From positions 2,294,001 to 2,358,000 of the forward strand of contig NC_015514.1 in NCBI RefSeq assembly GCF_000212695.1: DNA of 64,000 nt, given 5' to 3'. This document shows, piece after piece, positions 27,904 through 49,784 of this stretch. A program made the position numbers and the translations under genes. Below the pieces are notes generated by a model. It had not been told where the DNA came from. It saw nothing but the letters and a program-made list of their open reading frames with translations, and did not search any database. The number at the start of each line of letters is the position of its first letter. Within the stretch, counting starts at the first letter, position 1. The DNA comes from Cellulomonas fimi ATCC 484. Its GTDB lineage: Bacteria; Actinomycetota; Actinomycetes; Actinomycetales; Cellulomonadaceae.

Positions 27904-30744
27904 TCATGCGGCCGCCGCCGGGCCGGCACCGGTCGACCCGTCCGGAACCGCGACCTCCGGCACCGTCGCGCGTCCGCGCACCGGGCTGACCGCCTCCTGC
28001 GGCGAGAGCTGCGCGGACGGCGTCGCCCGCCGGCGACGCATGAGCACCTTGTCGAGCTCGGCGACGACCGGCAGGACCAGCGCGAGGCCGATCGCGGCGA
28101 GCCACTGCTCGCCGGACAGCGACTGCGTCGTGAGCCAGCGCTGCAGGAAGTCGAGCTCGGTGGCGAGCACGACGAGCACCACGGGGATCGACAGCACCTT
28201 GACCGCCGACAGCACGGGCGGCAGCAGCCCGGACTCCGGCTCGCGCCGCAGCACGAGGCCCGAGAGCGTCGACCCGAGGCCCATGACGACGAACGCCATC
28301 GTCATGGACGCGCTCGGCTCGGTCGTGGACAGCGCGTCGGGGCCCGCGACGAGCGGCACGGCCGTCGCCGCGCACAGCACCACGCCGTACAGCACCCAGC
28401 GGCTGATCGCGTGCCGGTTCCCGATCCCCTGCTTCGGGTCGCGTGGCGGCCGGCTCATGATCTCGGGGCCGACCGGGTCGAGCATGATCGCGACGACGGG
28501 TGCGACGCACACGAAGAAGTTGAGGAACAGCACCATCATGGGCGTGAGCGCGACGCCGTCGTTCAGGTCGGCGATCGTCGCGAGCAGGAACAGCAGCACG
28601 AGCCCGATGAGCTGGCTCATCTGGAACCGGATGTACGCGGTGATCTTCTGGTAGATGCTGCGGCCGAGCTCGACGGCGTGCACGAGCGTCGAGAAGTTGT
28701 CGTCGGTGAGGACGAGCCGCGCGGCCTGCTTGGTGACCTCGCTCCCCGAGCCCATGGCGACGCCGATGTCCGCCTGCTTGATCGCCGCGGCGTCGTTGAC
28801 CGCGTCGCCCGTCATCGCGACGACGAGCCCCTGGCGCTGCATGAGCTGCACCAGGCGGAGCTTGTCCTCCGGGGTGACGCGCCCGAACACGTGCAGGTCG
28901 GGCAGCCGCGCGAGCAGCTCGTCGTCGGTGAGGCGGGCCAGCTCGGCGCCGCTGATCGCGCCGGGCGGCAGGCCCAGGTCGGACCCGATCGCGGACGCCG
29001 TGACCGCGTGGTCGCCCGTGATCATCCGGACGTCGATGCCGGCTCGGTGCGCGATCTCGACGGACACCTTCGCCGAGGGCCGCAGCGGGTCGACGATCCC
29101 CACCATGCCGACGAACACGAGCCGCTCGACGTAGGCCATCGGGTCCGCGACGAGGCCCGGCTCGTCGGCGGGCGTCAGGACCCGCACCGCGAACGCGAGG
29201 GTGCGCAGCCCGGCGTGGGCCAGCCGGTCCTGCTCGGCGTCGATCTGCTCGCGCAGCACCGCCAGGTCGACGAACTCGCCGGGGGCTGCGAGCGCGTGGG
29301 TGCACCGGTCCAGCACGACGTCGGGGCCGCCCTTGACGACCTCGACCAGCGAGCGCTGCCCGCGCCACGGCATCCAGTGCGCGGTCGCCATGAACTTGTA
29401 CGCCGAGTCGAACGGCACCTCGGCGACCCGCGGGTACTCGCGGCGGCTCTCCTCGGCGTCGACGCCGAGCTTCGCGGCGAGCACGACGAGCGCGGCCTCG
29501 GTCGGGTCGCCGACGACATCACCCGCGTCGGAGACGAGCGCGTCGCTCGCGAGGCACAGCCCGTACGCCAGCGGCGTGAGGTCCGGGACCTCGGCGCCCG
29601 CGGCCGCGAGCACGCGACCGGTCTTGGTGTAGCCCGCACCCTCGACGGTGTAGTGCCGGCCGCCGAGCCACAGGGCGGTGACCGTCATCTCGTTGAGCGT
29701 GAGCGTGCCGGTCTTGTCGGAGTTGATCGCGCTCGTCGCCCCGAGCGTCTCGACGTCGGAGAGGTTCGCGACGATCGCCTTCGCGGCGGCGAGCTGCTTC
29801 GCGCCGTACGCGAGCATGGCCTGCACGAACGTCGGCAGGCCCGTCGGGATCGCGGAGATCGCGACGGCCGTCGCGAGGAACAGCAGGTCGGCGATCGGGT
29901 CGCCGCGCACCACGCCGATGACGACGATGAGCGCGACGGCGGACCACGCGATCGCGCCGAGCACCTTGGTCAGCGCGTCGAGCTCGCGCTGCAGCGGCGA
30001 GCGCGTCTTCTCGACGGACGACAGGAGCGTCGCGATGTGGCCGATCTGCGTCGTCATCCCGGTCGACGTCACGAGCAGCGTGCCCGTGCCGCGCGTCACC
30101 GCGGTGTTCTGGAACGCCATGTTGGTGCGGTCGCCGAGCGGCACGTCCTCGTCGGCGAGCGCCTCGGTGGACTTGCCGATCGGTGCGCTCTCGCCGGTCA
30201 GCGCGGCCTCCTGCGTCTCCATGGTCGCCGTCCGGGCGAGCCGGCCGTCGGCGGGCACGATGTCCCCCGCCTCAAGCTCGACGACGTCCCCGGGGACGAG
30301 CTGGCTGGCGGGGACGAGCGAGACGGCACCGTCGCGGCGGACCTTGCTCGTCGGCTCCTGCATCGTCGCGAGCGCGTCGACGCTCTTGCGCGCCTGCATC
30401 TCCTGGCGCGTGCCGATCACGACGTTGAGCAGCACGAGGAACCCGACGATCGCCGCCGTGGACCCCTGCCCGATCGCGATGCTCACGACCGCGACCGCGA
30501 CCAGCATGAGGTTCATCGGGTCGCGGACCTGGCTCAGCAGCACCGACCACACGGACGGCGGGGCCTGCGCCGTCAGCGTGTTCGGACCGTACTGCCGCTG
30601 CCGCAGCCCGGCCTCGGCGGCCGTCAGCCCTGTCGCCGGTGCGGTGCCGAGTGCCCGCGCCGCCTCGTCGGTGCTGAGCGCCCACCACCGGGTCTCGCTC
30701 CCGGTCGCGCCCTGCACGGCCGGCACGCTCGTCGTCTGGGCCAC
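27904..30744 (-). CDS. P-type cation-transporting ATPase (P2-like, CtpF type)
   Basis: A 946-residue P-type ATPase. The N-terminal cation-ATPase domain (about 20-85) and about ten membrane helices are present. The actuator loop has TGES, the phosphorylation site is D343 in NSDKTGTLT, the nucleotide domain has KGGPDVV, and the hinge reads MTGDAVNDAAAIKQADIG. Both hinge Asp residues are kept although GDGVNDAP is altered. Helix M4 has IPTGLP rather than the IPEGLP of Ca-ATPases, so the ion cannot be called from it. GTG start after GGGGAGG. Transcription likely starts at a TAGCGT -10 (30805-30800) under the inverted repeat at 30828. Confidence 0.92.
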   Translation of the reverse strand: MAQTTSVPAVQGATGSETRWWALSTDEAARALGTAPATGLTAAEAGLRQRQYGPNTLTAQAPPSVWSVLLSQVRDPMNLMLVAVAVVSIAIGQGSTAAIVGFLVLLNVVIGTRQEMQARKSVDALATMQEPTSKVRRDGAVSLVPASQLVPGDVVELEAGDIVPADGRLARTATMETQEAALTGESAPIGKSTEALADEDVPLGDRTNMAFQNTAVTRGTGTLLVTSTGMTTQIGHIATLLSSVEKTRSPLQRELDALTKVLGAIAWSAVALIVVIGVVRGDPIADLLFLATAVAISAIPTGLPTFVQAMLAYGAKQLAAAKAIVANLSDVETLGATSAINSDKTGTLTLNEMTVTALWLGGRHYTVEGAGYTKTGRVLAAAGAEVPDLTPLAYGLCLASDALVSDAGDVVGDPTEAALVVLAAKLGVDAEESRREYPRVAEVPFDSAYKFMATAHWMPWRGQRSLVEVVKGGPDVVLDRCTHALAAPGEFVDLAVLREQIDAEQDRLAHAGLRTLAFAVRVLTPADEPGLVADPMAYVERLVFVGMVGIVDPLRPSAKVSVEIAHRAGIDVRMITGDHAVTASAIGSDLGLPPGAISGAELARLTDDELLARLPDLHVFGRVTPEDKLRLVQLMQRQGLVVAMTGDAVNDAAAIKQADIGVAMGSGSEVTKQAARLVLTDDNFSTLVHAVELGRSIYQKITAYIRFQMSQLIGLVLLFLLATIADLNDGVALTPMMVLFLNFFVCVAPVVAIMLDPVGPEIMSRPPRDPKQGIGNRHAISRWVLYGVVLCAATAVPLVAGPDALSTTEPSASMTMAFVVMGLGSTLSGLVLRREPESGLLPPVLSAVKVLSIPVVLVVLATELDFLQRWLTTQSLSGEQWLAAIGLALVLPVVAELDKVLMRRRRATPSAQLSPQEAVSPVRGRATVPEVAVPDGSTGAGPAAAA

Positions 30745-30827
30745 GACCGCCTCCCCTGGGTCGGCCCGGACGTACCGGGCGCATGGACCTGGACGTCGGA
30801 CGCTAGGGCGGCTGCGCGCGCGGCACA

Positions 30828-30844
30828 TCACTCGCGGCAGGTGA
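30828..30844. promoter_or_regulatory. TCACYC-N5-RGGTGA box, divergent ATPase/membrane-protein promoters
   Basis: The element reads TCACTCGCGGCAGGTGA and extends to ATCAC/GTGAT arms. It is a variant of the box found at 34230, 37565 and 38530. A TAGCGT -10 for the ATPase begins 22 nt to its left (30805 to 30800), and GACACT (30869-30874) for the leaderless membrane-protein gene begins 24 nt to its right, so one box could serve both directions. Confidence 0.6.
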
Positions 30845-30880
30845 TGCGAGCGCCCCCGGGTGCGGGGCGACACTGCCCGG

Positions 30881-31408
30881 GTGACCGACGACTCCCCCGC
30901 CACCGGAGCCCCGCGGTCGGTGCGGGTACGCACGCACGCGGCCGAGCACCGCCGCCGCGCGTCGCACCTGTACGGTCTCGTGATCTCGGGCTCGGTCCTC
31001 GCGGCCGCGCCCGACGACTTCGGGCTCGTCCGGCTCGGCTCCGCGGTGGTCGGGACGCTCCTCGTCTACTGGCTCGCGGAGTCGTACGCGCACTGGACGG
31101 CGCTGCGCGCGCTGCAGGGCCGTCCCCTGACGCCGCACGAGCGCCGCGAGGTCTTCCTCGACGGTCTCCCGCTCGTGGCCGCCTGCGCGGTCCCCGTGAC
31201 GGTGCTGGTGGTCGAGGCGGCGCTCGGCGTCGAGCCGGGGCTCGGCGTGCGGGTCGCGCTCGCCATCAACGCCGCGCTGCTGGTCGTGGTGGGGTGGAAC
31301 ATGGCCGGGGAGGGCGGCATCTCCGGCTGGCGGCGCGTCGGCGCGAGCGCGCTGACGGGGGCGCTGGGCCTCGCGATGGTGGTGCTCAAGCTCGGCCTGC
31401 ACCACTGA
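30881..31408 (+). CDS. Four-helix integral membrane protein, unknown function
   Basis: A 175-residue conserved membrane protein with four predicted helices (about 30-50, 55-75, 105-130, 145-170) after a charged N-terminus (THAAEHRRRASHLYGLVISG). No known motif. The GTG start has no Shine-Dalgarno; GACACT ends 6 nt upstream, so it is likely leaderless. It is divergent from the P-type ATPase and shares the 17-bp box in between, which suggests co-regulation. Confidence 0.75.
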   Translation: MTDDSPATGAPRSVRVRTHAAEHRRRASHLYGLVISGSVLAAAPDDFGLVRLGSAVVGTLLVYWLAESYAHWTALRALQGRPLTPHERREVFLDGLPLVAACAVPVTVLVVEAALGVEPGLGVRVALAINAALLVVVGWNMAGEGGISGWRRVGASALTGALGLAMVVLKLGLHH

Positions 31409-31426
31409 CGCGACGTCGCGGGCCGC

Positions 31427-31457
31427 GCCCTGACGGCCCGGCCCGGCCCGTCAGGGC
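31427..31457. terminator. Terminator hairpin between convergent genes
   Basis: GCCCTGACGG (31427-31436) pairs with CCGTCAGGGC (31448-31457) across an 11-nt loop. The right arm overlaps the stop codon of the LuxR-family gene. There is no T-tract. Confidence 0.55.
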
Positions 31458-34210
31458 AGCAGGCCCAGCTCGCGCCCCCGGCGGACGGCGGCGCGGCGGC
31501 TGCCGACCTCGAGCTTGCGGAACAGCGACTTCAGGTGCGCCTTGACGGTGTTGACCGAGACGAACAGGTCGTCCGCGATCTCGGCGTTGCTCTGCATGGT
31601 CGCCAGCGCGGTGAGGACCGCGAGCTCGCGGTCGGTGAGCGCGCCCGCGAGCGGTGCGGGCTCGGCGACGGGCGCCTGCGGGCCGATGAGCTCGCGCACG
31701 CTCGCGGCGAGCGCGTCGGTGCGCGCACCGGCGACACGGGCCACGGGCTGGCGCACCGAGGGCGGCGCGGGCCGGACGAACGGCAGCACGACTCCCTCCG
31801 CGGCGGCCTCGTCGAACGCGGCGCGGGCGAGCGCGTCCGCCCGGCGCGGCTCGCGCGCGGCCTCCGCCACGCCGGACGCCACGAGCAGCGCCTCGACCCG
31901 GGTGAGCAGGTCGAGGTCCGCGTCGTCGGCGAGGACCTCCTGCACCTCCTCGGCCGCCGCCGGCGTCTGGTGCCGGGCCAGGTCGGTGCGCGCGCGGCAG
32001 ACGCGCCGCACGTCCGCGCTCGGCCGGCCGGGGATCGCCAGACCGGCGAAGGGCTCGTCGCGCAGGGCAGCGCGCACGCGCAGGTCGGTGGCCGCGCGGG
32101 CGACCATGTCCGCGGCGACCGGCGGCACGTCGATGCCCTCGGCGGCGCGCGCGGCGTCGGCCAGTGCGGCCGTCGCGGCCCGGGTCCGACCCGCGGCTAG
32201 CGCGACCTGCGCCTGCAGGGCGTGCATGGCGACCACGAGCACCGGCTCGTCGCCCCCGACGTCGGCCGCCCAGCCGTACGCGAGCGCCCGCTCGGCCCCG
32301 CGCCAGTCCCCCCGGACCAGCCCGACCACGGCCGCCGCCGCGTACGCGGGGCGCAGCTGCTCGTACGACGTCCAGCCGGCCTGCTCGGCGAGCACGAGGA
32401 TCGTCGTCACGCGCTCGAGCGCGGCCTCGTACCGGCCCTGCACCGCGTCGCACAGGGCGAGGTACGCACGCCCGTTGAGCGCCATGAGGCTCAGCGGCGC
32501 CGGGTCGTCGCGCACGAGCCGCTCGAGCTCGGTGCGTGCCGCGTCGACCCGGCCGGACCAGAACAGCCCGGTGGCGCGCAGGTCGTGGGCCCAGCTGCGG
32601 TACGTCGCGAACGCGGGGAACGGCACGGGGGTCCGCGCGAGGACGTGGTGCGCGGCGGTCGCGGCGGTCGTCGTCGCGGTCACGTCGCCGCGCCCCCGGG
32701 CGGCGTGCGCGTCGAGGATCTCGACGAGCACCTCGGCCGCACCGCGGTGCGCGTCGTCGAGGTCGTCCAGCAGCGCCCGGGCGCGCGCGACGTGGTGCCG
32801 GCACGCCGGGATCCGGCCCTCGACGCCCGCCACGGCACCGGCGCACAGCGCGCACCACACGGACTGCGTCTGCTCCTCGAGCGGCACGGCGTGCGCCGCC
32901 GCCAGCACCGCCGTGCGGTCCGGCCCGGGCAGCAGCAGCGCCGCCGACTCGACGAACACCTGGGCGAACAGCTCGAGCTCCTCCGCGGCCGCGGCGTGCT
33001 CGAGCGCGCGCAGCGGGTCGCCGTGCTCGACGTGCCACCGTGCCGCGCGCGCGTGCGTCAGCCGGTAGGCCGCAGGGTCCTCGAACCGCAGCGTGCCGCG
33101 CAGCATGTCCCGCAGCAGCGGGTGGAACCGGTACTGGACGGCGCCCGTGCCGCCGTCGCGCCGCGTGTCGTCGACGCCCCAGCCGTGCCCGGTGACGACC
33201 GAGACGAAGTCGTGCGCGGCGACGCGCTCCTCCAGGTAGCGACCCGCGGGCGCTCCCGGCACGAGCGCCGCGGCGAGGTCGATCGTCAGCGGCGACGCCA
33301 CCGACGTCCGCAGCAGGAAGTCCCGCACCGCGGGCTCCTGCCGCGCGAGCACCTCCTCGACGAGGTACTCCGCGACCGCCCGGTCGCCGTCGCCGAAGTC
33401 GACGAGCACGGCGCGGCCCGGCTCGGCGAGCTGCTGCAGCCCGAGCCGCACGCCGACGGGCCACCCCTCCGTGCGCTCGAGCAGGTGCTCGACGTCCTCG
33501 GGCTCGACGTCCACGCCCTCGGTGCCGGCGAGCGCCCCGACGTCGGTCGCGTCGAACGCCAGGTGCTCGGCCCGGACGTGGCCGACGCGGCCGTCGAGCG
33601 CGAGGCGGCGCAGCGGCAGGGGCGGGTCGGTGCGGCTGATGAGCACGACGTGCACGGCAGGCGCGTAGCGGACCAGGTCGCCGACGGCCTCCACGACCTC
33701 GGGCGAGCGCAGGTGCTGGGCGTCGTCGAGCACGAGCACCACGTCGCCGGGCAGCGTGCCGAGCGTGTGCAGCAGGTGCGTCGTGAACGCGTCGGTGATC
33801 GCCGGCGGGACCTGCAGCCGGTGCACCTCGTGGTGGCGCGGGACGGGCGTGGACGCGACCGCGGCGACGACCCGGTGCCAGAACACGGGCAGCACGTCGT
33901 CGCGCGCCTCGAGGGTCACCCACGCCGGGCGCAGGCCCCGGTCCGCGCACCAGCCGGCCACCGCGGTCGACTTCCCCCACCCGGCGCCACCGACGACCGC
34001 GGTCAGACGCCGGTGCCGCGCCCCGTCGAGGAGCGCCCACACCCGCTCGCGCGGGACGGCGTGCGGGACGACGGGGGGCGGGGCGACGGGGCGCACGACG
34101 GACGCCTGGGAGGAGGCGACGGGCGCGACCGAGGCCAGGGCGTCGCGGACCCCTCCCCGAGCCGCTATCCCCTCCGGTTCCTGGCGTCGAGCCGGCCCGG
34201 TGGTGGCCAT
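31451..34210 (-). CDS. MalT-like large LuxR-family transcriptional regulator (STAND ATPase)
   Basis: A 919-residue regulator of the LAL/MalT class. The N-terminal NTPase has Walker A GGAGWGKST (74-82) and Walker B VVLVLDDAQHL; a TPR-like helical sensor region fills about 370-840. The C-terminal LuxR helix-turn-helix reads LTDRELAVLTALATMQSN and VNTVKAHLKSLFRKLEVGS. Such proteins switch on when ATP and an inducer cause oligomerisation. The ATG at 34210 is probably leaderless: TACGGT (34222-34217) ends 6 nt before it. The TCACCC-N5-GGGTGA box at 34230 lies over its own -35 region, suggesting autoregulation. Confidence 0.9.
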   Translation of the reverse strand: MATTGPARRQEPEGIAARGGVRDALASVAPVASSQASVVRPVAPPPVVPHAVPRERVWALLDGARHRRLTAVVGGAGWGKSTAVAGWCADRGLRPAWVTLEARDDVLPVFWHRVVAAVASTPVPRHHEVHRLQVPPAITDAFTTHLLHTLGTLPGDVVLVLDDAQHLRSPEVVEAVGDLVRYAPAVHVVLISRTDPPLPLRRLALDGRVGHVRAEHLAFDATDVGALAGTEGVDVEPEDVEHLLERTEGWPVGVRLGLQQLAEPGRAVLVDFGDGDRAVAEYLVEEVLARQEPAVRDFLLRTSVASPLTIDLAAALVPGAPAGRYLEERVAAHDFVSVVTGHGWGVDDTRRDGGTGAVQYRFHPLLRDMLRGTLRFEDPAAYRLTHARAARWHVEHGDPLRALEHAAAAEELELFAQVFVESAALLLPGPDRTAVLAAAHAVPLEEQTQSVWCALCAGAVAGVEGRIPACRHHVARARALLDDLDDAHRGAAEVLVEILDAHAARGRGDVTATTTAATAAHHVLARTPVPFPAFATYRSWAHDLRATGLFWSGRVDAARTELERLVRDDPAPLSLMALNGRAYLALCDAVQGRYEAALERVTTILVLAEQAGWTSYEQLRPAYAAAAVVGLVRGDWRGAERALAYGWAADVGGDEPVLVVAMHALQAQVALAAGRTRAATAALADAARAAEGIDVPPVAADMVARAATDLRVRAALRDEPFAGLAIPGRPSADVRRVCRARTDLARHQTPAAAEEVQEVLADDADLDLLTRVEALLVASGVAEAAREPRRADALARAAFDEAAAEGVVLPFVRPAPPSVRQPVARVAGARTDALAASVRELIGPQAPVAEPAPLAGALTDRELAVLTALATMQSNAEIADDLFVSVNTVKAHLKSLFRKLEVGSRRAAVRRGRELGLLP

Positions 34211-34229
34211 GGGGACACCGTAGCGACGT

Positions 34230-34246
34230 TCACCCGTCCGGGGTGA
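34230..34246. promoter_or_regulatory. TCACCC-N5-GGGTGA box between the LuxR and DUF6325 genes
   Basis: A perfect copy, TCACCCGTCCGGGGTGA. To its right, CACGCT (34270-34275) begins after 23 nt and is a plausible -10 for the DUF6325 gene. To its left the -10 of the LuxR gene (TACGGT, 34222-34217) is only 7 nt away, so binding would cover that promoter. This asymmetry fits activation rightward and repression leftward; that is inference. Confidence 0.65.
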
Positions 34247-34303
34247 GGGGTAGATCGTCCTTTTTCCACCACGCTGGGCGCACGGAGCGGCGCGGGAGGT
34301 CGG

Positions 34304-35269
34304 ATGGCTACGGGGCTCGCGGAGATCACGGTGGCCGGGGCGCTCCCGGTGCCGTGGCGGCCCTGGCTGCGGGCGCGCGGCGTGCGCGCGATGCGCCGGC
34401 AGACCGTCCTGCAGGGCTCGGTGCCCGACGGCGCCGCGCTGCCCACGCTGCTGGAGCAGGCGCACGACCTCGGGCTCGGGGTGTCGGTGCTGTGGCAGGA
34501 GAGCCGCCGCGACACCTCCGGCGGCGTCGCGGTGCGGCTCGTCGTGGACGGCGGCGTCGGGGACGTCCTGCTGTCGATGCTCGACCAGCTCCGCGACGGC
34601 GACCGTGTCCCGTGCACGACGCTGGCCGTGCGCACCGGTGCCGTCGACGACGTCGCGCGCTGGCTGACCGAGCACGGCCGCGTCGTGCTCGGCACCGTGC
34701 ACCCCCTACCACCCGAGGCGGGTGATGCCCGCGCACCGGCGGGCGCGCAGGGTGGCGTCGCGGTGGACCCGCCGCACGGGTGGGGCACCGGTGACGAGCA
34801 CGGCCCGGACGAGGAGGCGGACGTGGAGGCTGACGTGGACGTGACCGAGGAGCTCGGGCCGATCGACTACCTGGTCGTCGAGTTCCCGCAGAACAAGCTG
34901 GACGGCACGGCGTTCCCGCTGCTCGTCGACCTGGTCGACCGCGGGATCATCCGCGTGCTCGACCTGGCGTTCGTCGAGAAGGACGCCGACGGCCAGGTGC
35001 ACGCGATCGAGCTGCACGAGGCGGCGTCGGGCGAGGTCGACCTCTCGTTCTTCGAGGGGGCGTCGTCGGGGCTGCTCGGCGACGACGACATCGCGGAGGC
35101 GGCGCAGGCGCTGGAGAACGGCTCCGCGGCCGGGATCCTCGTCTTCGAGAACCGCTGGGCCGCACCGTTCGCGGCGGCGCTGCGACGCGGCGGCGGTCAG
35201 CTGGTGGCGAGCGGGCGGATCCCCGTGCAGGCGATCCTCGCGGCGCTCGACGACCTGGACGCTGCCTGA
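34304..35269 (+). CDS. DUF6325 family protein with extra N-terminal domain
   Basis: A 321-residue protein. The C-terminal half (about 185-320) is a DUF6325 domain, recognised by GPIDYLVVEFP, LLVDLVDRGIIRVLDLAF, FEGASSGLLG and ENRWAAPFAAALRR. Typical DUF6325 proteins are only about 140 residues. The N-terminal 130 residues are an alpha/beta domain I cannot name, joined by an acidic linker (DEHGPDEEADVEADVDV). Function unknown; the family is usually next to SHOCT proteins, as here. GGGAGG ribosome site. Promoter carries the box at 34230. Confidence 0.75.
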   Translation: MATGLAEITVAGALPVPWRPWLRARGVRAMRRQTVLQGSVPDGAALPTLLEQAHDLGLGVSVLWQESRRDTSGGVAVRLVVDGGVGDVLLSMLDQLRDGDRVPCTTLAVRTGAVDDVARWLTEHGRVVLGTVHPLPPEAGDARAPAGAQGGVAVDPPHGWGTGDEHGPDEEADVEADVDVTEELGPIDYLVVEFPQNKLDGTAFPLLVDLVDRGIIRVLDLAFVEKDADGQVHAIELHEAASGEVDLSFFEGASSGLLGDDDIAEAAQALENGSAAGILVFENRWAAPFAAALRRGGGQLVASGRIPVQAILAALDDLDAA

Positions 35270-35345
35270 CGCAGCCCCGGGGAAGGCGCCCGCGGCCACG
35301 CCGGCCGGCGAGGCGCGCGACGGAAGCGGGACGAAGGAGGGGACG

Positions 35346-35666
35346 ATGCCTGGACTGATCCGCGGGGTGGCCCGCACGGCGGTGGTCGCCGGGACCGCGA
35401 GCGCGGTGTCCGGCCGGGTGCACCACCGGCAGCAGCAGAGGTGGGCGGACCAGGCGGGGCCCGGGTACGAGCCGGCGCCGCAGGAGGCGTACGCGGCTCC
35501 CGTCGCCTACGCCCCGCCGCCTCCCCCGCCTCCGGCCGCCGCTGCGCCGTCGCCCGACATGGACGCCAAGATCGCGCAGCTCAAGCAGCTCGCGGAGCTC
35601 CGCGACCAGGGGGTGCTGTCCCCCGCGGAGTTCGAGGTGCAGAAGGCGAAGCTGCTGGGCTTCTGA
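35346..35666 (+). CDS. SHOCT-domain protein
   Basis: A 106-residue small protein: basic N-terminus (MPGLIRGVARTAVVAG), a Pro/Ala-rich linker with PPPPPPP, and a C-terminal SHOCT domain (MDAKIAQLKQLAELRDQG, LSPAEFEVQKAKLLGF). SHOCT is a short oligomerisation or protein-interaction motif. Ribosome site GGAGGGGACG. It lies 76 nt after the DUF6325 gene and probably shares its transcript, which ends at the hairpin at 35674. Confidence 0.85.
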   Translation: MPGLIRGVARTAVVAGTASAVSGRVHHRQQQRWADQAGPGYEPAPQEAYAAPVAYAPPPPPPPAAAAPSPDMDAKIAQLKQLAELRDQGVLSPAEFEVQKAKLLGF

Positions 35667-35673
35667 GCGGACG

Positions 35674-35710
35674 GCGACGGCCCCGGGGCACGGTTCCCCG
35701 GGGCCGTCGC
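35674..35710 (+). terminator. Terminator hairpin after the SHOCT gene
   Basis: A 15-bp perfect stem (GCGACGGCCCCGGGG and its complement) with a 7-nt loop begins 8 nt after the stop codon. No T-tract. Confidence 0.8.
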
Positions 35711-35758
35711 GTGTGCGCGGGCGGCGGTCGGCGGCACCCGTCACCGCCATGGCGTGAC

Positions 35759-35907
35759 CCGTCCGTGCGGACGCCGGGCGACGACGCTCCTCCGTCCGGA
35801 CGCCCGGCCGTGACGCTCAGCCGTCCGGACGCCCGGCGACGACGCTCAGCCGTCCGGACGCCCGGCGACGACGCTCAGCCGTCCGGACGCCCGGCGACGA
35901 CGCTCAG
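35759..35907. repeat. 29-bp tandem repeat array ending in the MFS stop codon
   Basis: Four head-to-tail 29-bp units (35792-35820, 35821-35849, 35850-35878, 35879-35907), each starting CCGTCCGGACGCCCGG and ending CGCTCAG, are preceded by a degenerate 33-bp unit (35759-35791). The last three are identical. Each unit contains the palindrome CGTCCGGACG. The rightmost unit contains the stop codon of the leftward MFS gene (35904-35906), so the array looks like repeated duplication of that gene's end. The rest of the 35711-35903 gap shows nothing else. Confidence 0.9.
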
Positions 35908-37496
35908 CCGAAGGCGGCGCCCTCGGCGGCGCTGCCCGGGCGCGGGTCCGGCAGGCGGCGCATGCGCAGCGCCCCGACGACGCCCGCGAGGCCGACGGCC
36001 AGCGGCACGAGCAGCGCGACCTGCAGGGCGCGCGGCCGCACCTCGGTGTTGATCCGCACGATCTCGTCCTGCACGTCGGGCGGCTCGTCGGCGAGCAGCT
36101 CGGCGAGCTGGGTGTTGCTCATGAGCTGCGCGTCGTCCTCGAGCGCGCGGGCGACCTGCTGCTGCTGCTCGGGGTCGAGCACGGAGCTCGCGGACGCCTG
36201 CGACGTGAACCCGACGGCGAGCGCGCCGAGCATGAGCGCACCCGCGACGGCGAGCCCGAACGACAGCCCGAACGACCCGGCTGCCGAGTTCACGCCCGCG
36301 GCCTCGCTCACGCGCTCCTCGCTCACGGGCGACAGCGTGTAGTTGTTGAGCTGCGACACGAGCAGGCCCAGCCCGGAGCCGGCGACGACGAGCGGCAGCG
36401 CGAGCGCCCACCCGGAGGTCGCCCGCGGCACGACGGGCAGCAGCGCGGCGATCCCGACGACGAGCAGCGCGAAGCCCGCCAGGACGAGGTCCGCGGGCCG
36501 CCGGGTCCCGGCGCGCCGCCCCGCGAGGAGTGCGACGGCGAACATGCTGAGCGAGAGCGGCGCGAGCGACAGGCCCGCCGCCATCGCGTCGTACTCGAGC
36601 ACCATCTGCAGGAAGATCGGCAGCGCGATCATGGCGCCGCCGAGGGCGATCTGCTGGAGCATCTGCTGCGAGACGCCGACGCGGAACAGCGGCGAGCGGA
36701 ACAGCCCGGGGTCGATCAGGACGGGCCTGTCCGTGCGCTCGCGGCGCAGCAGCCAGCGCACGAGGGCCACGAGCGCGACGGCGCCGACGGCGAGCAGCGC
36801 GCCGACCGCCTCGCCGCCCTCCTGCCAGACGAGCACGCCCAGCACGATGCCGCCCATCGCGAGCGCGGACAGCACCGCGCCCACGACGTCGACGGACCGG
36901 TCGCCGGTGTACGGGACGTCCCGGACCCGCCGGATGCCCGACAGCACGACGGCGATGACGACCGCCTCGAGCGCGAACGCGACCCGCCACGACAGGTAGG
37001 TCGTGAGGAACCCGCCGATGAGGGGACCGACCGCGGCGGCGATCGACGCCGACGCCCCGACGAGCGCGTACACCTTCTTCTGCGCGGGGCCGGTGAAGTT
37101 GCCGTGCACGAGCGACTGCATCGAGGGCAGCAGCAGCGACGCGCCGAGCCCCCCGACGACGGCCCACAGCACGACGATCGCCGTCAGGCTCTGCGCGAAC
37201 GTCATCGCGAGCGCGCCCGTCGCGTAGCCGAGCAGCCCGAGGACGTACGCACGCTTGCGCCCGACGAGGTCGCCGACCTTGCTGCCGACGAGGATGAACG
37301 CCGCGGACACCAGCGCCTCGAGCGCGATCGCGGACTGCACGCCGCTGACCGTCGTGCCCAGGTCGCGCACGACCGCCGAGATCGACACGTTCATCAGCGA
37401 GGTGTCCACGACCAGCACGAACATCGCCATGGCCAGCAGCACCGCCAGCCGGCGGTCGAGGCCCGCGGCTGCGGCAGGTCCGGCCGGTGCGCCCAT
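35904..37496 (-). CDS. MFS multidrug exporter, 14-TM DHA2 (EmrB/QacA) family
   Basis: A 530-residue transporter with about 14 helices. Family motifs are VDTSLMNVSISAVVRDLG (motif D1) in helix 1, GSKVGDLVGRKRAY (motif A) and the GPLIGGFLTTYLSWR motif-C region. A long hydrophilic loop (about 445-500) with VLDPEQQQQVARALEDD precedes the last helix. It would export drugs or metabolites by proton antiport. The ATG has only a weak GGGA upstream. GACGCT (37541-37536) is a fitting -10, 23 nt from the box at 37565. The 3' end is part of a 29-bp repeat array. Confidence 0.88.
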   Translation of the reverse strand: MGAPAGPAAAAGLDRRLAVLLAMAMFVLVVDTSLMNVSISAVVRDLGTTVSGVQSAIALEALVSAAFILVGSKVGDLVGRKRAYVLGLLGYATGALAMTFAQSLTAIVVLWAVVGGLGASLLLPSMQSLVHGNFTGPAQKKVYALVGASASIAAAVGPLIGGFLTTYLSWRVAFALEAVVIAVVLSGIRRVRDVPYTGDRSVDVVGAVLSALAMGGIVLGVLVWQEGGEAVGALLAVGAVALVALVRWLLRRERTDRPVLIDPGLFRSPLFRVGVSQQMLQQIALGGAMIALPIFLQMVLEYDAMAAGLSLAPLSLSMFAVALLAGRRAGTRRPADLVLAGFALLVVGIAALLPVVPRATSGWALALPLVVAGSGLGLLVSQLNNYTLSPVSEERVSEAAGVNSAAGSFGLSFGLAVAGALMLGALAVGFTSQASASSVLDPEQQQQVARALEDDAQLMSNTQLAELLADEPPDVQDEIVRINTEVRPRALQVALLVPLAVGLAGVVGALRMRRLPDPRPGSAAEGAAFG

Positions 37497-37564
37497 CGTC
37501 GTCCCACCCGTCCGTCGGCGGCGTCCGTCGACGGCAGCGTCACGGTCACGGCAGGGCCGCCACG

Positions 37565-37581
37565 TCACCCGCCGCGGGTGG
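37565..37581. promoter_or_regulatory. TCACCC-N5-GGGTGR box, divergent MFS/hydrolase promoters
   Basis: TCACCCGCCGCGGGTGG matches the box at 11 of 12 arm positions. GACGAT (37605-37610) begins 23 nt to the right and ends 6 nt before the leaderless hydrolase ATG. GACGCT on the other strand (37541-37536) begins 23 nt to the left for the MFS gene. The symmetric spacing suggests one site drives both genes. Confidence 0.6.
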
Positions 37582-37616
37582 TCTCTCCCGGGCGGACCAG
37601 CCGCGACGATCGGGCG

Positions 37617-38516
37617 ATGGTGCGGCTCGCGCCCGGGTGGACCGAGCGCACCGTCCGGGTCGACGGGCGGCGCGTGCTCGTGCGGTGCAGCGCGCCCGTC
37701 GACGACGCGGTGCCGATCCTGCACGTGCACGGCTTCGCGATCTCCGGCACGTCGCTGCTGCCCACGGCCGAGCGCCTCACGGGCCGCGCGCGCAACGTGG
37801 TGCCGGACCTGCCCGGGTACGGGCGCAGCGAGAGCCCGCCCGCGACGCTGGGCATCCCCGGGCTCGCCGACGCCGTGCTGACGGTCCTCGACGCGCTCGA
37901 GCTGCCGGAGGTGGTGCTCGTGGGCAACTCCATGGGCTGCCCGGTGGTGCTCGAGGTCGCGCACTGGGCGCCCGAGCGCGTGCACCGTGCCGTGCTCGCG
38001 TCGCCCGCGGGCGGCATGTACAACCAGCCGTTCGTCCGCGGTCTGTGGCAGCTCGCGAAGGACGCCACGCGGGAGAGCCCGGCGATGGCCCGCACCGCGG
38101 TGCCCGACTACCTGCGGTTCGGCCCGGTGAACACGCTGCGGCTGTTCGACGAGCTGGTCCGCTTCCCGTCGCAGGAGCGGCTGCTGCGCATGCCCGTGCC
38201 GACGCTCGCGGTGATCGGCAGCCGTGACCCGATGATGCCGCCGCCCTGGCGGGTCCGGGAGATCGCACGGCTCGCTCCCGACCACGTGACGCTCGCCGTC
38301 GTCGTGGGCGCCGCGCACGCGATCAACTTCAGCCACCCGGGAGAGCTCGCGCACGTGGTCGGCTCGTGGCTCGACGGCGTGCCGATCGTGGACGACCCCG
38401 ACGAGCCCGGCGAGTCCCGCGTGCTGCAGCTCCCCCGCGACGGCGCCCCGCCGCCCGTCGACCGCAGCGTCGCCGAGCCCGGGCCGGGTCCTGCGCCGCG
38501 GCGCGCAGGTCCCTGA
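37617..38516 (+). CDS. Alpha/beta hydrolase
   Basis: A 299-residue alpha/beta-hydrolase fold protein. Oxyanion region HVHGFAISG, nucleophile elbow VGNSMGCPV, acid in VIGSRDPMM and catalytic His in VGAAHAINFSHP are all present. The overall pattern (DLPGYGRSESPP) is that of esterases and meta-cleavage hydrolases; substrate unknown. About 35 C-terminal residues are Pro-rich and disordered. No Shine-Dalgarno; GACGAT ends 6 nt before the ATG, so probably leaderless. Confidence 0.87.
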   Translation: MVRLAPGWTERTVRVDGRRVLVRCSAPVDDAVPILHVHGFAISGTSLLPTAERLTGRARNVVPDLPGYGRSESPPATLGIPGLADAVLTVLDALELPEVVLVGNSMGCPVVLEVAHWAPERVHRAVLASPAGGMYNQPFVRGLWQLAKDATRESPAMARTAVPDYLRFGPVNTLRLFDELVRFPSQERLLRMPVPTLAVIGSRDPMMPPPWRVREIARLAPDHVTLAVVVGAAHAINFSHPGELAHVVGSWLDGVPIVDDPDEPGESRVLQLPRDGAPPPVDRSVAEPGPGPAPRRAGP

Positions 38517-38529
38517 CCAGCGCACCCGA

Positions 38530-38546
38530 TCACCCGGCGCGGGTGA
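38530..38546. promoter_or_regulatory. TCACCC-N5-GGGTGA box upstream of the SHOCT membrane-protein gene
   Basis: A perfect copy, TCACCCGGCGCGGGTGA, 14 nt after the hydrolase stop. CAGGGT (38569-38574), a possible -10, begins 22 nt downstream, predicting a transcript starting near 38581 and reading through the GTG at 38621. Confidence 0.6.
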
Positions 38547-38620
38547 GGGGGACGGGCGGCGCCGCGGCCAGGGTGGGAACCGAGGCCGGAGCACGCCGGC
38601 ACCGACCGAGGAGGAACCCC

Positions 38621-38998
38621 GTGGACAGCTTCTGGGACTGGTTCTGGCTGATGGTGTGGTGGTTCGTGTTCTTCATGTACCTGGTCCTGCTGTTCCAGAT
38701 CTGCGCCGACCTGTTCCGCGACCGCACGACGGGCGGCTTCGCGAAGGCGCTCTGGGTGGCGGGCCTGATCCTGCTGCCGTTCCTGACCGCGCTGATCTAC
38801 CTGATCGCGCGCGGCAACGGCATGGCGGAGCGGCAGGTCGAGCAGGCGCGGCAGACGCGTGCCGCGACCGACGCATACATCCGGGAGACGGCGAACACGT
38901 CGCCCGCGAGCGCGATCGCGGACGCGAAGCAGCTGTACGACCAGGGCGTCATCAGCGCCGACGAGTTCGCGACGCTCAAGGCGAAGGCACTGGCCTGA
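38621..38998 (+). CDS. Two-helix membrane protein with SHOCT domain
   Basis: A 125-residue protein: an aromatic-rich N-terminal helix (FWDWFWLMVWWFVFFMYLVL), a second helix (LWVAGLILLPFLTALIYLIA) as in phospholipase-D-nuclease N-terminal (PLDc_N) segments, a cytosolic linker, and a C-terminal SHOCT domain (IADAKQLYDQGVISADEFAT). Probably a small membrane stress protein. GTG start after GAGGAGGA. It is followed directly by the potassium-channel gene. Confidence 0.85.
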   Translation: MDSFWDWFWLMVWWFVFFMYLVLLFQICADLFRDRTTGGFAKALWVAGLILLPFLTALIYLIARGNGMAERQVEQARQTRAATDAYIRETANTSPASAIADAKQLYDQGVISADEFATLKAKALA

Positions 38999-43217: not shown

Positions 43218-45470
43218 ATGTTGATCTGGCCGGGACGCCCCTACCCCCTGGGCGCGACGTACGACGGGACCGGGACGAACTTCGCGCTGTTCTCCGAGGT
43301 CGCCGAACGGGTCGAGCTGTGCCTGTTCGACGAGGACGGCGCCGAGACGCGGGTCGACCTGACCGAGGTCGACGCGTTCGTGTGGCACGGGTTCCTGCCC
43401 GCGGTCGGGCCCGGGCAGCGGTACGGCTACCGCGTGCACGGACCGTACGACCCGTCGCGCGGCCTGCGCTGCCACCCCTCGAAGCTGCTGCTCGACCCGT
43501 ACGCGAAGGCGATCGACGGCCAGGTGGACAACGACCCGTCGCTGTACACGTACCGGTTCGACGACCCGACCGCGACGAACGACGCCGACTCCGCGGCGCA
43601 CACCATGAAGTCCGTCGTCGTGAACCCGTACTTCGACTGGGGGCACGACCGTCCGCCGCAGCACCAGTACCACGAGTCCGTGATCTACGAGGCGCACGTG
43701 CGCGGCCTGACGCAGCAGCACCCGGCCGTGCCGGAGGAGCTGCGCGGCACGTACTCGGGCCTCGCGCACCCGGCGGTCGTCGAGCACCTGTCGTCGCTCG
43801 GCGTGACGGCCGTCGAGCTCATGCCCGTGCACCAGTTCGTCAACGACCCGGTGCTGCAGGACAAGGGGCTGTCGAACTACTGGGGCTACAACACGATCGG
43901 CTTCTTCGCGCCGCACAACGAGTACTCCGCGTACGGGGGCTCGGGGCAGCAGGTGCAGGAGTTCAAGGCCATGGTCAAGGCCCTGCACGAGGCGGACATC
44001 GAGGTCATCCTCGACGTCGTCTACAACCACACGGCCGAGGGCAACCACCTCGGCCCGACGCTGAGCTTCCGCGGGATCGACAACGCGAACTACTACCGGC
44101 TGGTCGACGACGACCCGGCGCACTACTTCGACACCACGGGCACGGGCAACTCGCTGCTCATGCGCTCGCCGCACGTGCTGCAGCTCATCATGGACTCGCT
44201 GCGGTACTGGGTCACGGAGATGCACGTCGACGGTTTCCGCTTCGACCTGGCCGCGACGCTCGCCCGCCAGTTCCACGAGGTCGACCGCCTGTCCGCGTTC
44301 TTCGACCTGGTGCACCAGGACCCGGTGATCTCGCAGGTCAAGCTCATCGCCGAGCCGTGGGACGTCGGAGAGGGCGGCTACCAGGTGGGCGGGTTCCCGC
44401 CGCTGTGGTCGGAGTGGAACGGCAAGTACCGGGACACCGTGCGCGACTTCTGGCGCAGCGAGCCGTCGACGCTGGGCGAGTTCGCGAGCCGCATCTCCGG
44501 TTCGTCGGACCTGTACGAGCACACGGGCCGCCGCCCGATCGCGAGCGTCAACTTCGTCACCGCGCACGACGGCTTCACGCTGGCCGACCTCGTCTCCTAC
44601 AACGAGAAGCACAACGACGCGAACGGCGAGGGCAACGCCGACGGCGAGAGCCACAACCGGTCGTGGAACTGCGGCGCCGAGGGCCCGACGGACGACGAGC
44701 ACGTGCTCAACCTGCGCGCGCGCCAGCAGCGCAACTTCCTCACGACGCTGCTGCTGTCGCAGGGCATCCCCATGCTGCTGCACGGCGACGAGCTGGGCCG
44801 CACGCAGCAGGGCAACAACAACGTGTACTGCCAGGACGGCCCGATCTCGTGGCTGGACTGGGACCTCGACGAGCGGCAGAACCACCTGCTCGAGTTCACG
44901 CGGCGCCTCGTGCGCCTGCGGCAGGACCACCCCGTGTTCCGACGCCGCCGGTTCTTCGCCGGGAAGCCGGACGTGGCGGACGCCTCCGACCTCAAGGACC
45001 TCGAGTGGCTCGCGCCGACGGGCGAGCACATGAGCCAGGAGGCGTGGAACAGCGACATGGCGCGCGCCGTCATGGTGTTCCTCAACGGGGACGCCATCGT
45101 CGAGCCCGACTCGCGGGGCGAGGAGATCGTCGACGACTCGTTCCTCGTGCTGTTCAACGGGCAGCCGGAGCCGGCGACGTTCGTCGTCCCGTCCGACCGG
45201 TACGGCGCGTCGTGGACCGTCGTGCTCGACACCGACTCCCAGGTCGCGCCGGGCGCGGTGCTCGAGGCGGGACAGGACGTCGCGCTCGCGCACCACTCGG
45301 TCGTGGTCCTGACCCGTCCGCCGCTGGCGCAGACGCCGTCGGCGTCGGGGATCGGTGCGGCCGCGGCCGCGTCGAGCGAGGCGGCGAAGGCGACGCGGGA
45401 GGGCGCGAGCGGACGCTCGTCCGAGTCCTCGCCGCGGCGTCGGGCGACGCGGACGGGGCCGAGCGCGTGA
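43218..45470 (+). CDS. glgX: Glycogen debranching enzyme (isoamylase type, TreX/GlgX)
   Basis: A 750-residue GH13 enzyme: CBM48 domain (about 1-130), catalytic barrel with region I DVVYNHTAEG, nucleophile D343 in GFRFDLAATL, acid/base E379 in IAEPWDVGEG and D451 in VTAHDGFTL, then a C-terminal beta domain with an Ala/Ser/Arg-rich tail. It removes alpha-1,6 branches from glycogen or limit dextrin, giving linear maltodextrins for TreY. No Shine-Dalgarno; CACATT ends 6 nt before the ATG, so probably leaderless. The stop overlaps treY (GTGA). Confidence 0.94.
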   Translation: MLIWPGRPYPLGATYDGTGTNFALFSEVAERVELCLFDEDGAETRVDLTEVDAFVWHGFLPAVGPGQRYGYRVHGPYDPSRGLRCHPSKLLLDPYAKAIDGQVDNDPSLYTYRFDDPTATNDADSAAHTMKSVVVNPYFDWGHDRPPQHQYHESVIYEAHVRGLTQQHPAVPEELRGTYSGLAHPAVVEHLSSLGVTAVELMPVHQFVNDPVLQDKGLSNYWGYNTIGFFAPHNEYSAYGGSGQQVQEFKAMVKALHEADIEVILDVVYNHTAEGNHLGPTLSFRGIDNANYYRLVDDDPAHYFDTTGTGNSLLMRSPHVLQLIMDSLRYWVTEMHVDGFRFDLAATLARQFHEVDRLSAFFDLVHQDPVISQVKLIAEPWDVGEGGYQVGGFPPLWSEWNGKYRDTVRDFWRSEPSTLGEFASRISGSSDLYEHTGRRPIASVNFVTAHDGFTLADLVSYNEKHNDANGEGNADGESHNRSWNCGAEGPTDDEHVLNLRARQQRNFLTTLLLSQGIPMLLHGDELGRTQQGNNNVYCQDGPISWLDWDLDERQNHLLEFTRRLVRLRQDHPVFRRRRFFAGKPDVADASDLKDLEWLAPTGEHMSQEAWNSDMARAVMVFLNGDAIVEPDSRGEEIVDDSFLVLFNGQPEPATFVVPSDRYGASWTVVLDTDSQVAPGAVLEAGQDVALAHHSVVVLTRPPLAQTPSASGIGAAAAASSEAAKATREGASGRSSESSPRRRATRTGPSA

Positions 45471-47989: not shown

Positions 47990-47990
47990 C

Positions 47991-49784
47991 GTGCAGCCGC
48001 GCGTGTGGGCGCCGGACGCGGGCCGCGTCGACCTGGTCCTGCCGTCGACGGGCGCGCGCGTCCCGCTGAGCCCCGACGACGACGGCTGGTGGTCCGGCGA
48101 CACCGACCTGCCGCACGGCACGGACTACGCGTTCGCCCTCGACGACGGTCCCCCGCTGCCGGACCCGCGCAGCGCGTGGCAGCCGGACGGGGTGCACGGG
48201 CCCAGCCGCGTGCTCGACACGGACGCGTTCGCGTGGACCGACCAGGGCTGGGCGGGCCTCGACGTCCGCGGACGTGTCCTGTACGAGCTGCACGTCGGGA
48301 CGTTCACGCCCGAGGGCACGCTCGACGCGGCCGCCGCCGCGCTGCCCGACCTGGTCTCGCTGGGGGTCGACGTCGTCGAGCTCATGCCGGTCGCGCCGTT
48401 CGACGGGCCGCGCGGCTGGGGCTACGACGGCGTCGGGCTGTACGCGGTGCACGAGCCCTACGGCGGACCGGCCGCGCTCGCGCGGTTCGTCGACGTCGCG
48501 CACGGCCTCGGGCTCGCGGTGTGCCTGGACGTCGTGCACAACCACCTCGGCCCGTCCGGCAACTACACGGGGTCGTTCGGCCCGTACGCGACGGACGCGC
48601 ACCACACGCCGTGGGGCTCGGCGATCAACCTGGACCAGCCGGGCTCGTCGGTCGTGCGGCGCTGGATCGTCGACAGCGCGCTGCGCTGGCTGCGCGACTT
48701 CCATGTGGACGCGCTGCGGCTCGACGCGGTGCACGAGCTGCGGGACGACTCGGGCCGTCACGTGCTCGCGCAGCTCTCCGACGAGGTCGCGGACCTGTCC
48801 GCCACGCTGGGCCGGCCGCTGTCTCTCGTCGCGGAGACCGATCTCAACGACGTCGTGAGCGTCGCCCCGACGCACGTCGGCGGGTGGGGCGTGACGGGCC
48901 AGTGGGCCGACGACGTCCACCACGCCCTGCACGCGCTCGTGACCGGCGAGCGGCACGGCTACTACGTCGACTTCGGCGCGGCCCCGACGCTGCGGCAGGC
49001 GTTCACGGGCGTGTTCGTGCACGCCGGCACGTACTCGACGTTCCGCGGCCGCACGTGGGGGCGGCCGGTGCCGAGCGGCACGGACGGCCACCGCTTCGTC
49101 GTGTGCGCGCAGAACCACGACCAGGTCGGCAACCGTGCGCTCGGCGACCGCCCGTCGGAGCGCCTCGACGCCGACACGCTCGCGGCCGAGGCGGCGCTGC
49201 TGCTGCTGTCGCCGTTCACGCCGATGCTCTTCCAGGGCGAGGAGTGGGGCACCCGCACGCCGTTCCAGTTCTTCACGTCCTTCCCGGACCCGGACCTGGG
49301 CCGGGCCGTGAGCGAGGGGCGCCGCGGCGAGTTCGGCGGGCACGGCTGGACCGAGCTGTACGGCGGTCCCGTCGACGTCCCCGACCCGCAGGACGAGGCG
49401 ACGTTCCGCCGGTCCGTCCTGGACCGGGCCGAGCGGGAGGCGCCCGGGCACGCCCGGCTGCTCGCCTGGTACCGCGAGCTCGTCGCGCTGCGCCGCTCCG
49501 TGCCGGACCTGGGGTCGGGCGACCTCGCGGTCACCGACCTGGAGTGGGACGGCCCGGACGAGGCCGACGGACCGTGGCACGGCGTCCTCGTGCTGCACCG
49601 CGGTGCGGCGCGCGTCGTCGTCAACCTCACGGCCGAGGAGCGCTCGGCGTCGCTGCCCGCGGGCGCACCGCTCGACGTCGCCGCCGCGTGGGGGTCGGCG
49701 CGGGTCGAGCCCGGTGCGGAGCCGCGGGTCGTGCTCGGTCCGGGCGCGACCGTCGCGCTGGTGCCGGCGTCCGCCGACGCCTGA
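47991..49784 (+). CDS. treZ: Malto-oligosyltrehalose trehalohydrolase
   Basis: A 597-residue GH13 hydrolase releasing trehalose from maltooligosyl trehalose, completing the TreX-TreY-TreZ route. An N-terminal CBM48-like domain (about 1-85) precedes the barrel with YELHVGTFTPEGT, DVVHNHLGPSGNY, nucleophile D245 in LRLDAVHEL, acid/base E282 in VAETDLND, and AQNHDQVGNRALG. C-terminal beta domain follows. GTG start 1 nt after treY. The trehalose product is an osmoprotectant and carbon store in actinobacteria. Confidence 0.95.
   Translation: MQPRVWAPDAGRVDLVLPSTGARVPLSPDDDGWWSGDTDLPHGTDYAFALDDGPPLPDPRSAWQPDGVHGPSRVLDTDAFAWTDQGWAGLDVRGRVLYELHVGTFTPEGTLDAAAAALPDLVSLGVDVVELMPVAPFDGPRGWGYDGVGLYAVHEPYGGPAALARFVDVAHGLGLAVCLDVVHNHLGPSGNYTGSFGPYATDAHHTPWGSAINLDQPGSSVVRRWIVDSALRWLRDFHVDALRLDAVHELRDDSGRHVLAQLSDEVADLSATLGRPLSLVAETDLNDVVSVAPTHVGGWGVTGQWADDVHHALHALVTGERHGYYVDFGAAPTLRQAFTGVFVHAGTYSTFRGRTWGRPVPSGTDGHRFVVCAQNHDQVGNRALGDRPSERLDADTLAAEAALLLLSPFTPMLFQGEEWGTRTPFQFFTSFPDPDLGRAVSEGRRGEFGGHGWTELYGGPVDVPDPQDEATFRRSVLDRAEREAPGHARLLAWYRELVALRRSVPDLGSGDLAVTDLEWDGPDEADGPWHGVLVLHRGAARVVVNLTAEERSASLPAGAPLDVAAAWGSARVEPGAEPRVVLGPGATVALVPASADA

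Follow-up and report, generated by a model that had tools for sequence, protein, structure and literature searches.

The large ATP-binding regulators of the LuxR family (LALs) have been described as poorly studied (PMC3282765), and for one of them a consensus site could not be predicted (PMC9628970). We analyzed a 64-kb stretch of the Cellulomonas fimi genome (the window, positions 2294001–2358000 of the 4.27-Mb single-contig genome), in which a 17-bp inverted repeat, TCACCC-N5-GGGTGA (the box), recurs in promoter regions around the gene of a MalT-like LAL at 31451–34210. Judged from sequence comparisons, it is highly probable that the box is the operator of this LAL, which would act as an activator at its targets and limit itself at its own promoter.

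The closest described system is that of Actinoplanes sp. SE50/110, where TCATCC-5nt-GGATGA is found at 17 mapped starts, 34.4 ± 1.0 nt away, and where deletion of MalT (ACSP50_3915) lowers and overexpression raises the targets, as expected of an activator (PMC7567727). The authors assume binding by MalT and see a relationship between the motif and the MalT box GGGGA(T/G)GAGG (PMC7567727). The Cellulomonas locus shares with this system a MalT-like LAL gene within its own putative regulon and a 17-bp inverted repeat (6-5-6) that occupies the −35 position and keeps a constant distance from the start. Taking 22–23 nt to the −10 hexamer, 6 nt for the hexamer and about 6 nt beyond it, the box edge would lie 34–35 nt from a start placed by the −10, compared with 34.4 nt in Actinoplanes. 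The two also have target types in common, namely, a class II glutamine amidotransferase gene with a box in this genome and genes for ThrE threonine/serine exporters with a box in other genomes of the genus. In contrast, the half-site is GGGTGA here and GGATGA there, one base apart, and the frequent targets here are DUF7144, DUF1269, DUF6325, SHOCT, P-type ATPase and sulfatase genes. A composite of the GGATGA box and a −10 gave 18 matches against 1 in the control among 396 genomes of the phylum, mostly as single sites, compared with 96 against 18 for GGGTGA; the GGATGA composite was not found in this genome, and mixed GGATGA/GGGTGA boxes occur in other genomes. With an identical geometry and a single base of difference in the half-site, the finding is a variant of the actinobacterial MalT-type regulon, GGGTGA being the commoner half-site in this sample.

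The second relevant system is that of BldM. In Streptomyces venezuelae, the BldM homodimer footprints on the palindrome TCACcCgnncGgGTGA at Group I genes, which it activates, and the sporulation genes under BldM control include whiB and ssgR (PMC4125116). These sites are likewise palindromic and have identical GGGTGA half-sites, but their spacer is 4 nt (16 bp in all) rather than the 5 nt (17 bp) found here. BldM shares the GerE-type HTH family with the LALs but belongs to the orphan response regulators. Escherichia coli MalT, the activator of the mal genes, resembles the proposed regulator in its signal transduction ATPase (STAND) half and in an activator site at about −35; its core is quoted as GGA(T/G)GA, of which the form GGATGA is one base off GGGTGA (PMC7567727), but the window LAL falls under the NCBIfam cut-off for MalT (see below). 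Finally, SCO6993, a Streptomyces LAL of 606 aa, is a repressor that binds short palindromes and its own promoter (PMC9628970); unlike the sites studied here, its published sites lack a consensus, and they bear no resemblance to this box. The original prediction, made from the window alone, held that no described system has this box. That claim does not stand, given the same geometry with GGATGA in Actinoplanes and the same half-site with a 4-nt spacer in BldM. In the open-licence literature, as far as it was examined, we found no description of the 5-nt GGGTGA box itself; in the excerpts of PMC6921075, PMC9599347 and PMC7509140, its letters occur merely in primers or unrelated sequence tables.

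Boxes, −10 hexamers and the proposed regulator in the window

The regulator gene, the boxes and the associated −10 hexamers are as follows (window coordinates).

31451–34210, minus strand: gene of the LAL/STAND regulator, 919 aa, MalT-like ATPase half and C-terminal GerE helix-turn-helix (HTH)
30828–30844, no strand assigned: box 1, 2 mismatches, common to the P-type ATPase and membrane-protein genes
34230–34246, no strand assigned: box 2, exact, with the LAL gene on one side and the open reading frame (ORF) at 34304 on the other
34709–34725, plus strand: box 3, 1 mismatch, inside a longer ORF, matching the conserved DUF6325 promoter box
37565–37581, no strand assigned: box 4, 1 mismatch, common to the major facilitator superfamily (MFS) and hydrolase genes
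38530–38546, plus strand: box 5, exact, ahead of the SHOCT gene
30800–30805, minus strand: −10 hexamer TAGCGT, P-type ATPase gene, 22 nt from box 1
30869–30874, plus strand: −10 hexamer GACACT, membrane-protein gene, 24 nt from box 1
34270–34275, plus strand: −10 hexamer CACGCT, ORF at 34304, 23 nt from box 2
34217–34222, minus strand: −10 hexamer TACGGT, LAL gene, 7 nt from box 2 and 6 nt before the ATG
34748–34753, plus strand: −10 hexamer CAGGGT, DUF6325, 22 nt from box 3
37536–37541, minus strand: −10 hexamer GACGCT, MFS gene, 23 nt from box 4
37605–37610, plus strand: −10 hexamer GACGAT, hydrolase gene, 23 nt from box 4, with an ATG 6 nt further
38569–38574, plus strand: −10 hexamer CAGGGT, SHOCT gene, 22 nt from box 5

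Four of these boxes had been reported before, and all four are present, exact at 34230 and 38530, with one mismatch at 37565 and two at 30828; the inventory was incomplete, however, as the fifth box at 34709 had been missed. The six hexamers given with them were confirmed at their distances, both by reading and by scoring with a composite weight model of box plus −10 trained exclusively on other genomes. With this model, seven directional sites in the 64-kb window score above 19, corresponding to the six earlier promoters and that at 34709 (the P-type ATPase and membrane-protein promoters score 22.1 and 20.8, respectively), and no site above 19 was found in 30 first-order Markov sequences. The window holds two exact boxes where base composition predicts 0.006, and the genome holds five against 0.40 expected and none for the pattern read backwards; with one mismatch allowed, the genome has 11 boxes compared with two for the reversed control. 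At two targets, the −10 lies so close to the start codon that the transcript may be leaderless: an in-frame GTG at 30881 would give the membrane-protein gene such a start, and the ATG of the hydrolase gene 6 nt past its −10 suggests the same.

The C-terminal LuxR-type HTH of the LAL matches PF00196 (GerE) at residues 858–910 (E = 9.6e-16), and its ATP-binding half (residues 44–446) matches MalT of PDB entry 8bob (E = 5e-20), with GAGWGKST, which we take to be the Walker A motif. The protein scores 171.5 bits with the NCBIfam MalT equivalog NF003420, below the cut-off of 537, and by this model it is not a MalT orthologue. Its own promoter has a different layout, consisting of the box, 7 nt, TACGGT, 6 nt and the ATG, and would be leaderless. 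The box here spans about −20 to −36 and thus includes the −35, as the original prediction had it. The same order (TCACCC-N5-GGGT, 7–9 nt, TAnnnT, 6 nt, ATG) is found at L051, L089, L130 and L106; together with the window, 5 of the 11 close LAL orthologues looked at (of 14; the boxes of L089 and L130 are subthreshold and were read by eye) have a box immediately ahead of a leaderless −10. Because a bound box would cover about −20 to −36, it is plausible that the LAL represses its own gene. Of the earlier claim of self-repression, the box position is thus kept in other genomes, and repression itself is what that position would suggest.

A preferred spacing from box to −10 across the genus

In 60 genomes of the genus, the exact box occurs 79 times compared with four times for reversed controls. 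We read the regions around 69 of these boxes, with genes taken from a simple custom caller that sets some starts wrongly (L118, for example, is probably over-extended), and defined as gene-facing those flanks with a gene start 20–250 nt away, which gave 76 distinct flanks. The pattern nAnnnT is found at 22 nt in 22 and at 23 nt in 28 of these, i.e., in 50 of 76, whereas at other offsets between 0 and 59 nt it occurs in 0 to 5 of the 76; the 62 remaining flanks have it in one case at 22 nt and in four at 23 nt. The genome of the window supplies 4 of the 76 flanks and 2 of the 50 matches, so that the fixed spacing first seen in the window is also present in other genomes. The position it implies, with the box centre near −43.5, agrees with the activator-like placement originally put forward.

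The boxes also lie where promoters would be expected. Fifty-three of the 69 are intergenic or over a gene edge, 11 overlap an upstream stop codon and 5 are inside a called gene, in loci that are 89.1% coding. At the 11 sites with a stop codon, the TGA/TCA end of the box is itself the stop codon of the upstream gene. Symmetric sharing of one box by two divergent genes, also proposed earlier, is real but is not the rule: both −10s are present at 7 of 24 divergent sites, one at 15 and none at 2, and 22 of 29 one-sided sites have a −10. Some promoters carry neighboring double boxes of which the second is altered (L092 at 6178/6217, L113 at 5975/6013, and L083, L111 and L129), and a mixed TCATCC/GGGTGA box is found among them.

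Boxes accompany LAL genes

LAL matches (E ≤ 1e-20) are found in 34 of the 60 genomes. Linkage was counted with 75 of the 79 boxes and 57 of the 58 LAL rows, a second fragment of one gene being omitted. Among the boxes listed, 28 of 75 lie within 7.5 kb of a LAL match, where 0.45 would be expected, and 25 of the 57 LAL matches have a listed box within that distance. Genomes with a close LAL (14) carry 3.0 boxes each compared with 0.80 in the other 46 (rank test, p = 1e-6). Orthologous promoters show the same pattern. The SHOCT promoter has a box in 14 of 14 genomes with a close LAL and in 3 of 16 without (one-sided p = 5e-6; 30 loci out of 41 genomes with a match), and the P-type ATPase promoter, taken at one gene per genome and at a promoter cut of 15, has it in 14 of 14 compared with 1 of 14 (p = 4e-7; 30 loci in 28 genomes, two of them second paralogues, in G057 and G014, that have no box). 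Control stretches inside the SHOCT, P-type ATPase and MFS genes contain no boxes. The conservation that the original prediction required of orthologous promoters is thus observed for both genes wherever a close LAL is present. Boxes of the 5-nt type are found beside LAL genes and divergent LAL paralogues in other families too. At L084, L104, L122 and L133, a repeat GGGAGTCA...TGACTC (GTGACAC in L104) adjoins the box before a LAL paralogue, with a divergent gene on the opposite side, which encodes a DUF1254/DUF1214 protein in L084.

These results lead us to favor the following mechanism. An inducer would switch on the ATPase half of the LAL, which would then assemble on the two GGGTGA half-sites, located where a −35 element would be. 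With the box edge 22–23 nt before the −10 and its centre near −43.5, the bound LAL would recruit RNA polymerase and turn on the P-type ATPase, membrane-protein, DUF6325-SHOCT, MFS, hydrolase and SHOCT genes and a few distant promoters. Bound at the LAL promoter itself, where the box is directly upstream of the −10, the protein would prevent transcription and so keep its own level in check. The sequences show the box, its spacing and conservation, its linkage to LAL genes and its co-occurrence with them, whereas binding, activation and self-repression by the LAL are what we infer. A regulon with the MalT-like LuxR protein as its regulator, as first suggested from the window, is supported by the other genomes and by the Actinoplanes MalT work.

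Several observations weigh against the LAL as reader of the box. The 26 genomes of the genus without a LAL match at 1e-20 nonetheless carry 0.58 boxes each, although in three stretches from among them (L091, L101 and L111) the box adjoins a weaker LAL or a fragment of one. The P-type ATPase promoter scores 13.4 and 14.4, just below the cut of 15, in two genomes that lack a close LAL. The MFS promoter has a box in only 4 of 13 genomes with a close LAL, compared with 1 of 13 without (26 of 26 loci). The glutamine amidotransferase site, with one mismatch, scores well in 2 of 27 orthologues (26.6 here, 19.4 in G057 and ≤3.4 in the other 25). Linkage and co-occurrence are in part the result of block inheritance of the cluster; for this reason, and owing to the relatedness of the genomes, the p values overstate independence. 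Furthermore, as the box model was trained on promoters of the genus, the scores of exact-box promoters are not fully independent. Finally, the BldM homodimer footprints on a palindrome whose half-sites are just one base closer (PMC4125116).

Alternative readings of the box

This last point underlies the alternative that survives best, in which a BldM-like or another NarL-type response regulator reads the box and the LAL gene is a mere neighbor or target; boxes in genomes without a LAL match at 1e-20 favor it as well. We regard it as improbable in light of the 4-nt-spacer boxes. TCACCC-N4-GGGTGA occurs at 169 sites, compared with none for the control, in 58 of the 60 genomes, including position 669522 of the genome of the window. 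Unlike the 5-nt boxes, which adjoin LAL genes and divergent paralogues and are present or absent together with the close LAL, these sites occur independently of the LAL, at 2.79 per genome where a close LAL is present and 2.83 where it is not (p = 0.96). Among the 75 listed, from the 169 in all, no site has a LAL match within 7.5 kb, and a fixed −10 is absent, with nAnnnT at 22 nt in 0 and at 23 nt in 2 of 20 gene-facing flanks (22 loci). The 4-nt boxes that we looked at lie ahead of oxidoreductase-like and secreted-protein genes and form a separate, unlinked operator set. The genus thus has two operator types with identical half-sites, of which the 5-nt type alone accompanies a LAL and a fixed −10. 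As the 4-nt boxes neither track the LAL nor keep the −10 spacing, the simplest BldM explanation is removed, and we reject BldM as reader of the 5-nt box on the distribution, the neighbors and the −10 spacing of the 4-nt boxes. The genetics in Actinoplanes, moreover, links a 5-nt-spacer sister motif to a LAL (PMC7567727). Cross-binding between the two box types may occur. Weighed together, the similarity to BldM and the 4-nt control offset each other and leave our confidence in the LAL as reader unmoved.

A LAL acting as a repressor at these promoters, with the box as an operator over the −35, is less probable still. The box does lie over the −35 position, and at the LAL promoter it is placed for repression, but the tight 22–23-nt spacing is an activator requirement, and in Actinoplanes the MalT targets drop on deletion and rise on overexpression (PMC7567727). 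There is even less to recommend a promoter element of an alternative sigma factor, which would account for the fixed distance to the −10. The usual promoter spacer is about 17 nt, and the box lies 22–23 nt from the −10 instead; furthermore, the box is palindromic, is used on both sides at 7 of 24 divergent sites and is linked to LAL genes. Chance palindromes in GC-rich DNA, to which the weakness of single −10 matches might point, are rejected as next to impossible by the genus counts against the control (79 and 4), the Markov sequences, the base-composition expectation and the conservation of orthologous promoters.

Proposed target genes of the cluster

With the LAL as proposed activator, the targets in the window would be the following; families are from Pfam unless noted.

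27904–30744, minus strand: P-type cation ATPase, target, promoter composite
30881–31408, plus strand: small membrane protein without a Pfam family, target, promoter composite
34304–35269, plus strand: 321-aa ORF, target, DUF6325 at residues 184–318 (C-terminal part)
34823–35269, plus strand: probable stand-alone DUF6325 gene from GTG 34823 (GTG 34835 or 34841 also possible)
35346–35666, plus strand: SHOCT-domain protein, downstream of DUF6325
35904–37496, minus strand: MFS transporter, target; nearest NCBIfam model of DHA2 efflux type, below cut-off
37617–38516, plus strand: alpha/beta hydrolase, target
38621–38998, plus strand: SHOCT-domain membrane protein (MDSFWDWF...), target

Box 3 is most likely the promoter box of DUF6325 inside a longer frame. 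DUF6325 relatives exist as separate genes, mostly of 144–152 aa, most of which begin at about the point of GTG 34823; this GTG, with GAGGAGG upstream, is a likely DUF6325 start. CCACCC-N5-GGGTGA stands 94–97 nt before the DUF6325 start, with a −10 at 22 nt, in L086, L103, L112, L116, L121 and L132; L092 has a weaker box with a −10 at 23 nt, and L089 and L130 have a long DUF6325 frame with an internal box, as in the window. A coding accident at 34709 was rejected, since such a box lies about 95 nt before stand-alone DUF6325 genes. The SHOCT protein at 35346–35666 is probably on the same transcript, the order DUF6325 then SHOCT being found also in L089, L130, L116 and L121. Boxes precede P-type ATPase orthologues in G049, G012, G019 and G050, and a box at the MFS/hydrolase position is present in L112 and L130. 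Elsewhere in the window, three consecutive genes at 43218–49784, which we take to encode glycogen debranching and malto-oligosyl-trehalose enzymes, had no box before them in the composite-model scan, and a 170-aa protein at 62442–62954 has a LAL-like HTH (E = 3.5e-9 with that of the LAL).

Reach of the box beyond the cluster

The regulon had been predicted to be local, but the composite is not confined to the cluster. Two distant composites are found, ahead of a DUF7144-DUF1269 operon (L012 at 9891) and of a membrane-protein gene downstream of a groEL-like gene, in addition to the glutamine amidotransferase site. At 695472, where an exact site overlaps the end of a signal-peptidase-like gene, no −10 was present at the set distance, and no composite was found at the one-mismatch sites 1155437, 1734415 and 2493634.

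Scanning the order for the box with a −10 at 22 or 23 nt gave 50 matches compared with 2 for the control, in 19 of 198 genomes (one site counted at both spacings and 5 matches within the genus), and the phylum gave the 96 matches noted above, in 34 of 396 genomes, with 14 of the 18 control matches in one family. As these loci were selected by box and one −10, their spacing is circular; this does not apply to the second flank where genes diverge, and both −10s are present at 8 of 23 such sites. A LAL gene is present on 21 of 59 order and phylum stretches with a box, some of them cut at the stretch end. In G063, 11 composite sites are spread over four contigs, and 1 of the 9 stretches fetched contains a LAL; regulator and targets are largely unlinked in that genome.

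Pfam analysis of 99 nonredundant targets of 130 gave DUF7144 (11), DUF1269 (10), SHOCT (6), DUF6325 (5), P-type ATPase, sulfatase and PLDc_N (4 each), SulP, alkyl sulfatase, SfLAP, DUF308 and GerE (3 each), and ThrE and CLC (2 each). DUF7144, DUF1269 and DUF6325 are not among the 25 families listed for the 86 control genes, a list that takes in every family with at least two members (control set A2, 86 of 99 sampled genes, 13 running to the stretch end being omitted). The SHOCT family does not discriminate because it is equally common in control genes (6 of 86) and targets (6 of 99). The targets are largely unstudied and of envelope type, and the box type is spread over the phylum.

Implications for LAL regulators in Actinomycetota

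We lean, by a small degree, toward a broader proposal in which TCACCC-N5-GGGTGA would be a main operator of a MalT-derived STAND family across Actinomycetota and would define an unrecognized envelope and ion-homeostasis regulon (DUF7144, DUF1269, DUF6325, SHOCT, cation ATPases, sulfate-ester enzymes, SulP and ThrE). Several paralogues per genome may read one box, with activation at targets and self-repression at the regulator gene, and one extra base would separate this network from the BldM-type network. A box that can be read from sequence would allow target prediction for many LAL regulators. Beyond Actinoplanes, the pattern is seen in many families of the phylum, and the protein families DUF7144, DUF1269 and DUF6325, so far unstudied, would acquire a common regulatory context. 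The box also predicts start sites, and whether one spacer base separates LAL from BldM-type control becomes testable.

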